From positions 2,046,001 to 2,110,000 of the forward strand of contig NZ_CP009832.1 in the NCBI RefSeq assembly GCF_000959525.1: a stretch of DNA of 64,000 bases. The letters run 5' to 3'. Shown here piece after piece: positions 24,340-40,625 of this stretch. The notes under the pieces were generated by a model that was given only the letters and a program-made list of their open reading frames with translations, was not told where the DNA came from and did no database searches. A program made the translations under genes and the position numbers. Position 1 is the first letter of the stretch. Each line of letters starts with the position of its first letter. The stretch is from Burkholderia multivorans ATCC BAA-247. Its GTDB lineage: Bacteria > Pseudomonadota > Gammaproteobacteria > Burkholderiales > Burkholderiaceae.

Positions 24340-24462
24340 CAATGAATGCCAGTTCGCCCCATATTTCTCGTAGCTGCGCCGGTGCTTTCCGGCATCTGAC
24401 GCGCATCACGACGGTATCAGCCGAGCCGCATGTCCCTGTCCACGGGGCAGCGGCTTTTTTTA
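24340..24462 (+). ncRNA. candidate small RNA between bcp and phoH
   Basis: No reading frame of note. From the promoter at 24305-24333 the transcript would be about 120 nt, with a hairpin GCCGG-TGCTTT-CCGGC (24378-24393) and a strong intrinsic terminator: AGCCGC and GCGGCT (24424-24429, 24450-24455) enclosing TGTCCC/GGGGCA, followed by seven T. It could be an independent sRNA, a bcp 3'UTR-derived sRNA, or a premature-termination leader for phoH; the 175-nt gap between the terminator and phoH favours a separate RNA. Confidence 0.45.
24424..24462 (+). terminator. strong intrinsic terminator before phoH
   Basis: Composite stem AGCCGC-a-TGTCCC / GGGGCA-GCGGCT (one bulged A, one G-U pair) with a 7-nt loop, followed by TTTTTTT. 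It ends either bcp or the candidate small RNA. Confidence 0.85.
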
Positions 24463-36025: not shown

Positions 36026-37801
<1,776 letters not shown>

Positions 37802-37843
37802 CGCGCGATATTTTTTGACTGACCGACCGAAGAGGCTTAGCTC

Positions 37844-38653
37844 ATGCCGAAGTTTGCTGCAAACCTGACCATGCTGTTCAACGAAGTGCCGTTCCTCGAC
37901 CGCTTCAAGGCGGCCGCGGACGCGGGCTTCGATGCCGTCGAGTTCCTGTTTCCGTATCCGTATGCGAAGGAGGAACTCGCCGAACGGCTCGACGCGCATC
38001 GCCTGCGCCTCGTGCTGCACAACCTGCCCGCCGGCAACTGGGATCAGGGCGAGCGCGGGATCGCGTGCCTGCCCGATCGCGTCGGCGAATTCCAGGAAGG
38101 CGTCGGCCGCGCGATCGAATACGCGAAGGCGTTGAAGGTGCCGCAGCTGAACTGTCTCGTCGGCATTCCGTCGGCGAGCACGCCGCGCGACAAGACGTTC
38201 GTCACGATCGTCGACAACCTGCGCTTCGCGGCCGATGCGCTCAAGCGCGAAGGCATCCGCCTGCTCGTCGAGCCGTGCAACAGCTTCGACATTCCGGGCT
38301 TCGCGCTGAACCGTTCGGCCGAAGGGCTCGACGTGATCCGCGCGGTCGGTTCGGACAACCTGTTCCTGCAGTACGACATCTATCACATGCAGCGCATGGA
38401 AGGCGAACTCGCCGCGACGATCGAACGCAACCTCGCCTCGATCGGCCACGTGCAGCTCGCGGACAACCCGGGCCGCCACGAGCCGGGCACCGGCGAGATC
38501 AACTACGCGTTCCTGTTCGCGCTGCTCGACCGGCTCGGTTACACCGGCTACGTCGGTTGCGAATACAAGCCCCGCACCACCACGACCGAAGGGCTCGGCT
38601 GGCTGCAAAGCGTCGCCGGCTGCACGTCGGGCGCCGCGCGCCGCGCCGCCTGA
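37844..38653 (+). CDS. hyi: hydroxypyruvate isomerase
   Basis: 269 residues, xylose-isomerase-like TIM barrel. MPKFAANLTMLFNEVPFLDRFKAAADAGFDAVEFLFPY is the Hyi opening; the metal-binding Glu residues are in LLVEPCNSFDIPGF and YVGCEYKPRTTT. It interconverts hydroxypyruvate and tartronate semialdehyde. Between gcl and glxR in one operon. Confidence 0.94.
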   Translation: MPKFAANLTMLFNEVPFLDRFKAAADAGFDAVEFLFPYPYAKEELAERLDAHRLRLVLHNLPAGNWDQGERGIACLPDRVGEFQEGVGRAIEYAKALKVPQLNCLVGIPSASTPRDKTFVTIVDNLRFAADALKREGIRLLVEPCNSFDIPGFALNRSAEGLDVIRAVGSDNLFLQYDIYHMQRMEGELAATIERNLASIGHVQLADNPGRHEPGTGEINYAFLFALLDRLGYTGYVGCEYKPRTTTTEGLGWLQSVAGCTSGAARRAA

Positions 38654-38692: not shown

Positions 38693-39583
38693 ATGGCAAC
38701 CATCGGTTTCATCGGCCTCGGCATCATGGGCGCGCACATGGCGCGCAACCTGCTCAAGGCCGATCATCAGCTCGTCGTGAACGGCGCGTATCCGGTGCCC
38801 GACGATCTGCGCGCGAGCGCGAAGGTCGTCGCGAACTCGAGCGAAGTCGCGAAGAACGCGGACATCATCATCTCGATGGTTCCGGACACGCCCGACGTGC
38901 GCAACGTGCTGTTCGCCGACGACGGCGTCGCGAAGGGCCTGACGCCGGGCAAGCTCGTGATCGACATGAGCTCGATCTCGCCGCTCGACACGCAGGAATT
39001 CGCGAAGCAGATCAACGCGCTCGGCTGCGACTATCTCGATGCACCGGTCTCCGGCGGTGAAGTCGGCGCGCGCGAAGCGTCGCTGACGATCATGGTCGGC
39101 GGCCCGGAGCAGGCGTTCGAGCGCGCCAAGCCGCTGTTCGAGAAGATGGGCAAGAACATCACGCTCGTCGGCGACAACGGCGCGGGCCAGACCTGCAAGG
39201 TCGCGAACCAGATCATCGTCGCGCTGAACATCGAGGCCGTCGGCGAAGCATTGCTGTTCGCCGCGCGCTCGGGCGCGGACCCGGAGCGCGTGCGTCAGGC
39301 ACTGATGGGCGGCTTCGCGGCATCGCGCATCCTCGAAGTGCACGGCGCGCGGATGACCAAGCGCACGTTCGATCCGGGCTTCCGCATCGAGCTGCACCAG
39401 AAGGATCTGAACCTCGCGCTCGAAGGCGCACGCAAGCTCGGCCTCGCGCTGCCGCACACCGCGAGCGCGCAGCAGCTGTTCAGCGTGTGCGCATCGCACG
39501 GCGGCAAGGCATGGGATCACTCGGCGCTCGTGCGTGCGCTCGAGATCATGTCGAACTTCGAGATCGAGAAGTCGGCAAGCTGA
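38693..39583 (+). CDS. glxR: tartronate semialdehyde reductase
   Basis: 296 residues, beta-hydroxyacid dehydrogenase family. N-terminal GFIGLGIMGAHMARNL binds the nucleotide; DAPVSGGEVGAREASL is the substrate motif; the catalytic Lys is in GAGQTCKVANQIIVALN. It reduces tartronate semialdehyde to glycerate, finishing the glycerate pathway from glyoxylate. AGGAG precedes the ATG. Last gene of the operon; no plus-strand T-rich terminator follows. Confidence 0.94.
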   Translation: MATIGFIGLGIMGAHMARNLLKADHQLVVNGAYPVPDDLRASAKVVANSSEVAKNADIIISMVPDTPDVRNVLFADDGVAKGLTPGKLVIDMSSISPLDTQEFAKQINALGCDYLDAPVSGGEVGAREASLTIMVGGPEQAFERAKPLFEKMGKNITLVGDNGAGQTCKVANQIIVALNIEAVGEALLFAARSGADPERVRQALMGGFAASRILEVHGARMTKRTFDPGFRIELHQKDLNLALEGARKLGLALPHTASAQQLFSVCASHGGKAWDHSALVRALEIMSNFEIEKSAS

Positions 39584-39749
39584 ACGCGGGCCGCGTCGGG
39601 CGGCTGCCATGACGCACTATCCGTCGCGATCGCGGCGGATGGTGCGCGAAATTCACGTGCGCCGGCCGCTGCCGGTGCATCGATGTGCGCGACACGCGCG
39701 CATCACGGTGGGGCGCCCCGCCGCGCATCGCGTCGATGCGTGCGCGGCG

Positions 39750-39867
39750 GGGCGAAAAACGCCGCTCTGGGCTGAGAGCGGCGTGGTGGGGTCCGCAGCG
39801 GCACCCGGCGACGCCGGGGAAGCCTTGGTCGGTCAGACGTCGTCGTCGGGTGTCCGCCTGTCGGATT
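39750..39867 (-). ncRNA. candidate minus-strand small RNA downstream of glxR
   Basis: On the minus strand TCGACG (39902-39897), 17 bp, TGTAAT (39879-39874) forms a plausible promoter; start near 39867. The roughly 118-nt RNA would have a CCCGGC-GUC-GCCGGG hairpin (about 39804-39818) and end at a good terminator, ACGCCGCTCT/AGAGCGGCGT (39784-39775 with 39768-39759) followed by TTTTT. No protein-coding gene on the minus strand needs this terminator, since the nearest neighbours on both sides are plus-strand genes. No Shine-Dalgarno-linked frame was seen. Confidence 0.5.
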
Positions 39868-39873
39868 TCGCGT

Positions 39874-39902
39874 ATTACATTTCTTTACGTTCGTACCGTC
39901 GA
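39874..39902 (-). promoter_or_regulatory. candidate promoter for the minus-strand small RNA
   Basis: TCGACG-N17-TGTAAT read on the minus strand: four and five of six matches to the sigma-70 boxes with ideal spacing. Confidence 0.4.
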
Positions 39903-40059
39903 TTTTTCATGCAATCGTCGCGACGAACGCCTACACTTTCGCCACGCCTTTCGAGAAAGCCGCCGCGCTCGCGTTCACCTTCGGTGGCCGCCCCCAGCGC
40001 GGTGTTTTTTTCGCCACTTCACGGCGCGTTTTCGTTTCAACCACCTAAGGAGTGCAACG

Positions 40060-40530
40060 ATGGGTCTTCTTTCGTTTATCAAAGAGGCGGGTGAAAAACT
40101 GCTGGGTCATGCCGACGCGCAAGCGGCGGAAAATCCGAATGCCGCGAACCAGACCGCGGCCGATGCAATCAAGAACTACATCAACACGCAGGGCCTCGAC
40201 ACGTCGAACCTGACCGTCGCGTTCGACGGCGCGTCGCGCACCGTGTCGCTGTCGGGCAGCGTGCCCGATCTCGACACGAAGGCGAAGGTCAAGGTCGCGG
40301 CCGGCAACGTGCAAGGCGTCGCGGGCGTCAACGACGACGGCCTGCAGCCCGACGATCCGGAAGTCCGGTACCACGACGTGAAGCCGGGCGACACGCTGTC
40401 CGCGATCGCGAAGGAAGTGTACGGCGACGCGAACAAGTACCCGGTGATCTTCGAGGCGAACAAGCCGATGCTGTCGAGCCCCGATCGCATCTATCCGGGT
40501 CAGAAGCTCGTGATTCCGCCGCAAGCCTGA
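40060..40530 (+). CDS. BON and LysM domain protein (Kbp/YgaU-like)
   Basis: 156 residues. MGLLSFIKEAGEKLLG opening, a BON domain (about 38-98, VAFDGASRTVSLSGSV...VKVAAGNVQGVAGV), and a C-terminal LysM (about 104-154, YHDVKPGDTLSAIAKEVYGDANKYPVIFEANKPML). This is the architecture of E. coli Kbp/YgaU, a cytoplasmic K+-binding protein, and of related LysM proteins. No signal peptide. AAGGAG precedes the ATG at 40060. A bidirectional terminator follows. Confidence 0.9.
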   Translation: MGLLSFIKEAGEKLLGHADAQAAENPNAANQTAADAIKNYINTQGLDTSNLTVAFDGASRTVSLSGSVPDLDTKAKVKVAAGNVQGVAGVNDDGLQPDDPEVRYHDVKPGDTLSAIAKEVYGDANKYPVIFEANKPMLSSPDRIYPGQKLVIPPQA

Positions 40531-40556
40531 GCGTTTGCACACGTCGACAATGAGAA

Positions 40557-40583
40557 AAGGCAGGCCGCTCGGCCTGCCTTTGT
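40557..40583 (+). terminator. bidirectional intrinsic terminator
   Basis: Perfect stem AAGGCAGGCCG/CGGCCTGCCTT with a two-base centre, TTTG on the plus side and a run of A on the other, so it serves both the BON-LysM gene and the convergent asparaginase gene. Confidence 0.85.
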
Positions 40584-40625
40584 CGTTTACGGCATCGATT
40601 CGGCCGGCACGCGGCCGCGTGTGGG

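Follow-up and report, generated by a model that had tools for sequence, protein, structure and literature searches.

An RNA from the 3' untranslated region (UTR) of glutamine synthetase, reportedly named GlnZ, is one of the small RNAs (sRNAs) that come from the 3' ends of metabolic mRNAs. The consulted excerpts of the literature describe this RNA (PMC9731577), SdhX, which derives from the 3' end of sdhCDAB-sucABCD and acts on ackA (PMC9438474), and OppZ and CarZ of Vibrio cholerae, which are operon 3' UTR RNAs pairing with their own transcript (PMC7398697; PMC9438474). Few sRNAs of the Burkholderia group have been functionally characterised, according to the consulted part of PMC10987360. The ncS RNAs of Burkholderia cenocepacia are conserved, and several are predicted to act over ribosome-binding sites of carbon-metabolism genes (excerpts of PMC5688073 and PMC4603805); Table 1 of the former gives 15 candidates by genome position only, 14 of them independently transcribed with a terminator.

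Here, a window of 64,000 nucleotides (the whole stretch of DNA analysed) from Burkholderia multivorans ATCC BAA-247 was studied around the gcl-hyi-glxR operon, the mRNA of which probably ends in a base-pairing regulator that acts on aceB in trans and on hyi in its own operon. The first-pass annotation had placed a minus-strand sRNA at 39750..39902, between glxR and the BON-LysM gene, both of which do lie on the plus strand. A conserved non-coding RNA is present there and is probably trans-acting, but not on the minus strand: judged from comparative sequence data, the locus looks like a conserved RNA structure on the plus strand, in the 3' UTR of gcl-hyi-glxR, rather than an antisense sRNA. The conserved unit spans about 39708-39869 and thus begins ahead of the annotated interval and ends within it. 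The features are as follows, with CM denoting the covariance model and SL a hairpin:

36026..37801, plus strand: gcl, glyoxylate carboligase (TIGR01504, 1204.8 bits)
37819..37828, plus strand: predicted hyi target site CTGACCGACC, gcl-hyi intergenic, 25-16 nt before the hyi ATG, complementary to the seed
37844..38653, plus strand: hyi, hydroxypyruvate isomerase (TIGR03234, 382.9 bits)
38693..39583, plus strand: glxR, tartronate semialdehyde reductase (TIGR01505, 401.9 bits)
39708..39869, plus strand: the whole structured 3' UTR element of gcl-hyi-glxR (CM matches in 183/398 family genomes; 3' of glxR and on its strand at 36/36 picked loci)
39708..39715, plus strand: unpaired motif GUGGGGCG preceding SL0 (GUGGGGCG or a close form in 41/51)
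39714..39754, plus strand: SL0, a hairpin variable in sequence and length (fold and alignment)
39755..39759, minus strand: five-T tract, equal to the plus-strand A-rich linker (TTTTT in 49/64 genus sequences; 0-6 T in 8 in 51 relatives)
39759..39784, plus strand: SL1 hairpin, read on the minus strand as a terminator stem by the first-pass annotation (6/8 modelled pairs changed on both sides)
39786..39795, plus strand: GUGGGGUCCG at the base of SL2, a second occurrence of the GUGGGG motif (sequence and alignment)
39788..39869, plus strand: SL2, a long seed-bearing hairpin (covarying stem, fold)
39823..39836, plus strand: seed CCUUGGUCGGUCAG in the SL2 loop/apex (14-mer in 50/51, GGUCGGUCAG in 51/51; complementary to the aceB and hyi sites)
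39874..39902, minus strand: promoter-like pair TCGACG-N17-TGTAAT, outside the RNA element (-35 in 1/64, -10 in 51/64)
40060..40530, plus strand: BON-LysM gene, for context (NF008399, 184.1 bits; missing in four element-keeping genomes)

No Rfam match was found at the glxR-BON-LysM locus at gathering score, with nothing convincing at E <= 10, and by the gathering-score test the element is not a member of a known Rfam family. Elsewhere in the window, positions 24342-24461 (plus strand) match a previously described sRNA family of Burkholderia, BcKCsr2 (RF02883, 107.3 bits). Between the BON-LysM gene and asnB, a hairpin at 40556-40585 with an A-run before it and a T-run after it was seen by eye and resembles a bidirectional terminator.

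The distribution of the element was assessed with covariance model R1, built from 20 genus sequences. Of 22 distinct bodies, 20 were used in alignments A1 and A2 (L062 and L064 were left out; the window represents the commonest T form). R1 found the element in 183 of 398 family genomes, spread over 5 of 25 genera, with one element match per genome among the matches listed, while an order-wide draw of 399 genomes gave five matches, four in the same family and one weak one outside it (G619, E 0.007). At all 36 loci chosen in four other genera, the element shares its strand with gcl-hyi-glxR and sits 3' of glxR, 20-316 nt from the end of the glxR alignment, and is followed by BON-LysM, a convergent asnB or other DNA.

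Element and glxR (ortholog cut-off E <= 1e-145) occur together in 179 of the 398 family genomes, glxR alone in 13, the element alone in four and neither in 202. All 13 glxR-only genomes belong to genus g24, and in the four element-only genomes glxR is in pieces or at a contig end. The unfiltered CM reached at best 21.6 bits (E 0.0042; L262, more than 1 kb past glxR) at the glxR loci of element-less genomes and 12.0 bits at those of genus g24, both of which are taken as chance matches. Seven non-Burkholderia loci (L141, L154, L164, L171, L176, L180 and L202), part of a CM run covering 29 loci and L135, gave at best 20 bits (E 0.08). In some reduced Caballeronia-like genomes, represented by L128, L137, L285 and L286, gcl or glxR is found only as broken pieces beside a still recognisable element, which may reflect either recent decay or a function independent of the enzymes.

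Four genus genomes (G014, G015, G027 and G050) keep the element body and have no BON-LysM match at 1e-20. When 39584-40062 was used as the query, the best match was confined to about 39758-39867 in G014 and G050 and to 39745-39867 in G015. The converse is seen in G040, which has BON-LysM and a related upstream block, no glxR match at 1e-60 and no element; the body thus travels with glxR and not with BON-LysM. A BON-LysM leader was therefore rejected, as the element persists without the gene in four genomes and is missing where the gene is present in G040. Upstream of BON-LysM, block TATTACATTTCTTTACGTTCG (39872-39893) is kept in most genus sequences having the gene and occurs in altered form in G040, where the RNA element is absent; it looks like a BON-LysM regulatory site.

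The structure is supported by alignment A3, consisting of 51 element matches (50 distinct rows) fitted to the plus model. In A3, 18 of 38 pairs changed on both sides and 96.8% of cells are paired; none of 500 shuffles was as good, and slid controls gave 2-5 both-side-changed pairs. The consensus pairs hold 299 G-U cells on the plus strand versus 10 A-C cells, the latter corresponding to G-U on the minus strand, and the alifold energies are -52.0 (plus) versus -20.7 (minus). SL0 has no strand preference in the 51 relatives. Because A3 was fitted to the plus model, the strand test was repeated with 48 distinct sequences in a neutral MAFFT alignment from which L062 and L134 were left out. Here the plus fold (-87.4) has 10 of 39 pairs changed on both sides, with 310 G-U and 13 A-C cells, and the best minus fold (-71.0) has 7 of 33, with 33 G-U and 41 A-C cells. 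The earlier choice of the minus strand as the coding strand of the RNA is therefore not borne out, as the comparative evidence favours plus. The z-scores of single-sequence folds fail to distinguish the strands and slightly favour minus, at -4.16 (minus) versus -3.31 (plus) over 115 nt and -7.05 versus -6.19 over 162 nt (39709-39870).

SL2 seems to be the core of the element. In a Caballeronia-like subgroup (L134, L286, L287 and L288), the usual SL0 and SL1 are missing and SL2 is kept, followed by a U-rich tract seen by eye; terminator-like hairpins, likewise seen by eye, lie farther down in L058-L060 and L063. In the window, the terminator scan listed no intrinsic terminator on the plus strand immediately following SL2, and plus-strand terminators are not uniform among the loci. 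A small protein gene was ruled out by indels of 1-2 nt inside the element among relatives. The GUGGGG motif was considered as a second seed and set aside, as it gave only a weak match near glxR.

The 14-mer CCUUGGUCGGUCAG at the SL2 apex is present in 50 of the 51 matches and GGUCGGUCAG within it in all 51, the sole change being in L060 (G015), a genome without an aceB match. As the seed is nearly invariant, seed-target covariation gives no test of pairing. When the loop was compared with the starts of seven window genes, hyi stood out at -32.2 kcal/mol, a value reached by 0.75% of 400 random segments. This signal is due to CTGACCGACC, to which GGUCGGUCAG of the loop is complementary. Thus hyi, which the earlier annotation had named for target prediction, carries a conserved complementary site.

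The site is found 22-30 nt before hyi, within one mismatch, at 65 of 69 element-bearing loci (54 exact, 11 with one mismatch), comprising all 34 sequences of the genus (exact in 29, one mismatch in 5) and 31 of the 35 from other genera (exact in 25, one mismatch in 6), and at none of five loci from element-less genomes. By chance, CTGACCGACC within one mismatch occurs in random 78-nt window segments at a frequency of 0.017. As a control, non-overlapping 10-mers between -66 and -10 of hyi recur in 0-2 of 36 other-genus loci, except for one at the gcl stop codon (10/36). The four loci missing the site are L101, L102, L106 and L256; it is also missing in L278, which was uncounted as its first hyi alignment does not start from the N terminus, and L277 was dropped as a duplicate of L128. 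With opening costs, the hyi duplex scores -12.5, and 2 of 600 background window segments are as good (known window sites removed; mean 1.3, sd 5.4, best -15.2).

Further targets were sought by scanning the genome itself for CTGACCGACC placed 4-26 nt before an ATG, which returned 22 rows versus three for the backward control. Of these rows, 15 fall within long open frames, where they are read in phase as Leu-Thr-Asp, one lies in a frame interior in another phase, two (one place) follow a stop, and four are at gene starts, namely those of hyi, aceB, ureE and an adenosine deaminase gene. Besides the element, no stretch of the genome was found within 3 mismatches of the complement of the loop's 20 nt. 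The ureE match (L303 and L335; G000:C3:971457-971480, minus strand) is at the gene start and overlaps the stop of the preceding frame, and the adenosine deaminase match (L304 and L336; G000:C3:1174322-1174345, minus strand) lies 21 nt before the gene start. By complementarity, both genes are possible further targets.

The product of aceB is malate synthase A by NCBIfam TIGR01344 (662.8 bits, cut-off 594.5). Its site, CTGACCGACCAAGGAG, offers 14 nt complementary to the seed and lies over the likely Shine-Dalgarno sequence; CTGACCGACCAAGG in this ribosome-binding region is the complement of the 14-nt seed. Once opening costs are included, the aceB duplex reaches -20.3, a value that none of the 600 background segments equals. 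The site was surveyed in 30 chosen genomes, 24 of which have an aceB match at 1e-80. Leaving G000 aside, 18 element-bearing genomes contributed 19 copies, of which 15 carry the exact 14-mer and 18 carry CTGACCGACC within one mismatch, the copy without it being one of two in G016. None of the six copies from element-less genomes (G040, G408, G087, G195, G089 and G066) has the site, and other upstream 10-mers not overlapping it recur in at most 2 of 19. The match extends to about 17 nt in G306 and G377, and in G040 two single bases are missing from the site, the flanks of which resemble those of G000.

The two sites are not always kept together. G143 and G200 retain the aceB site with one mismatch and lack the hyi site (2 and 4 mismatches), while G027 and G050 have an exact hyi site and no aceB match. 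At 1e-80, aceB was not found in five element-bearing genomes (G015, G027, G050, G073 and G255), and neither target was found in G073.

The letters on which an independent minus-strand sRNA of about 113 nt was proposed, running from a promoter at 39902-39874 to T5 at 39755, are real. A 10-bp hairpin at 39759-39784 with a loop of 6 is followed on the minus strand by T5 (39759-39755), TCGACG and TGTAAT are 17 nt apart, and both minus-strand hairpins were confirmed. The sequence is also conserved beyond chance, as 64 of 65 genus genomes gave a match to 39584-40062, but this is not the mark of a minus-strand gene. TGTAAT is kept in 51 of 64 aligned genus sequences, with the hexamer 7 nt from the body in 51, and TTTTT is kept in 49 of 64; this part of the conservation expected for the proposal stands, and the minus-strand z-scores given above are in its favour. 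In contrast, the -35 TCGACG is found in only one of the 64 sequences (TCGCAC in 31, TCGCGC in 9), so that the promoter is not a conserved one. Hexamer and T-tract are both missing from G014, G015, G027 and G050, in which the RNA body is 88-98% identical. The T-tract does not hold up as a terminator, being the reverse reading of the A-rich linker that separates two plus-strand hairpins. A conserved promoter of its own together with a terminator was thus not found for a minus-strand intergenic sRNA at this locus, and simple terminator and promoter scans listed neither feature; in our reading, stem extension consumes the first T, leaving T4, and the promoter scan demands an A at position 2, which TGTAAT lacks. 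The G-U cells point to plus, and the seed/target logic functions on plus only, because a minus transcript has the same letters as the target sites and would be unable to pair with them. On conservation, G-U cells and targets we rejected the minus-strand sRNA as the main reading, z-scores and conservation among close relatives not speaking against it, and we regard it as very improbable. An extra minus-strand transcript in the closest relatives is possible. Interference with read-through from glxR, suggested earlier, is not supported.

An element working only in cis, as an mRNA stabiliser, a protein-binding site or a partner of hyi alone with aceB unaffected, would fit its position in the glxR 3' UTR, its strong hairpins and the hyi site on the same mRNA. 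It would leave unaccounted for the exact 14-nt aceB match in 15 of 19 copies and its absence from 6 of 6 copies without the element, as well as a loop more constant than stability alone requires, and is thus unlikely. It is more improbable still that another RNA or protein binds the hyi and aceB sites, with the SL2 loop as a decoy or mimic of the partner's site. The direction of regulation is not constrained by the present results, which leaves room for a decoy, but the loop is the complement of the sites and not a copy, and the sites are missing from the tested element-less genomes; we give this reading hardly any weight. Regulation by a plus-strand 3' UTR that pairs with aceB and hyi is the reading retained here. 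It agrees with what is expected of a 3' UTR-derived trans-acting sRNA, as the element lies on-strand at the 3' end of an operon and has a conserved seed complementary to the translation starts of its targets.

Two glyoxylates are joined by Gcl into a product that GlxR reduces towards glycerate, while malate synthase condenses acetyl-CoA with glyoxylate. As one constant loop matches the ribosome-binding sites of aceB and of the operon's middle gene, it may steer glyoxylate between two competing pathways. When the gcl operon is transcribed, the structured 3' UTR would accumulate and probably be processed to a small RNA, whose production, size, processing and any chaperone are inferred. The seed CCUUGGUCGGUCAG at the SL2 apex would then pair with the aceB ribosome-binding region elsewhere in the genome and lower its translation, diverting glyoxylate away from malate and towards tartronate semialdehyde and glycerate. 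In addition, this apex may pair with the 10 nt just upstream of hyi and dampen hyi as feedback. The competing malate synthase branch would thus be closed whenever the carboligase route is on. Trans action would require a released, or at least accessible, 3' end. Repression of aceB and hyi, rather than activation, is suggested by the positions of the target sites in the sequence.

A broader version can be put forward tentatively, in which the mRNA tail is a flux switch: one constant loop would shut off malate synthase in trans, trim hyi and perhaps touch nitrogen and purine genes (ureE, adenosine deaminase), and it might do so from the intact structured mRNA end, having itself neither promoter nor terminator, in Burkholderia, Paraburkholderia, Caballeronia and Trinickia alike.

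If the proposal is true, a group with few characterised sRNAs gains a conserved regulatory RNA for which a concrete role is predicted. It would act post-transcriptionally as a switch where glyoxylate enters either the glycerate route or malate synthase, and would extend beyond Vibrio and enterobacteria the case of an operon acting through its 3' end on itself and on a competing pathway. The prediction is sharply testable, as it comprises two target sites, one 14-nt seed and one genome in which the element and an intact site are both missing.

In the literature, considered by title and start of abstract, no report of a glxR 3' UTR RNA was found. Nor was one found by term look-up in the searched parts of PMC4035088, PMC5719362, PMC3521395, PMC10175445, PMC4603805, PMC10987360, PMC12322963 and PMC5760752. 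As supplementary tables were outside this scope, the RNA may have been sighted earlier as an unnamed transcript.

Several described RNAs resemble the element, as far as the consulted excerpts go. The L17 downstream element (RF01708; PMC2864571) is likewise a conserved structured 3' UTR RNA, often with no gene directly after it, whose strand was argued from G-U pairs; it belongs to another gene and clade, and the consulted part of its description has no trans target. The ncS RNAs, like the element, are conserved Burkholderia RNAs with predicted ribosome-binding-site targets, but 14 of the 15 are independently transcribed with a terminator, a comparison made by description since they are listed by position only. 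OppZ, as described in the excerpts, pairs with the oppA-oppB intergenic region, much as the site here lies in the gcl-hyi intergenic region; it differs in being 52 nt long, RNase E-dependent and in need of Hfq, whereas the element here is predicted to be about 160 nt with three hairpins. Unlike in the excerpted accounts of OppZ and CarZ, the second predicted target here, aceB, is outside the operon. SdhX and the glutamine synthetase type offer a parallel: in the consulted portions, an RNA derived from the tail of a metabolic transcript acts on an enzyme gene of a connected pathway, as predicted here for a different operon, target and clade. SdhX is described there as variable outside a short seed, whereas here the hairpins and the 14-nt seed are conserved over several genera.
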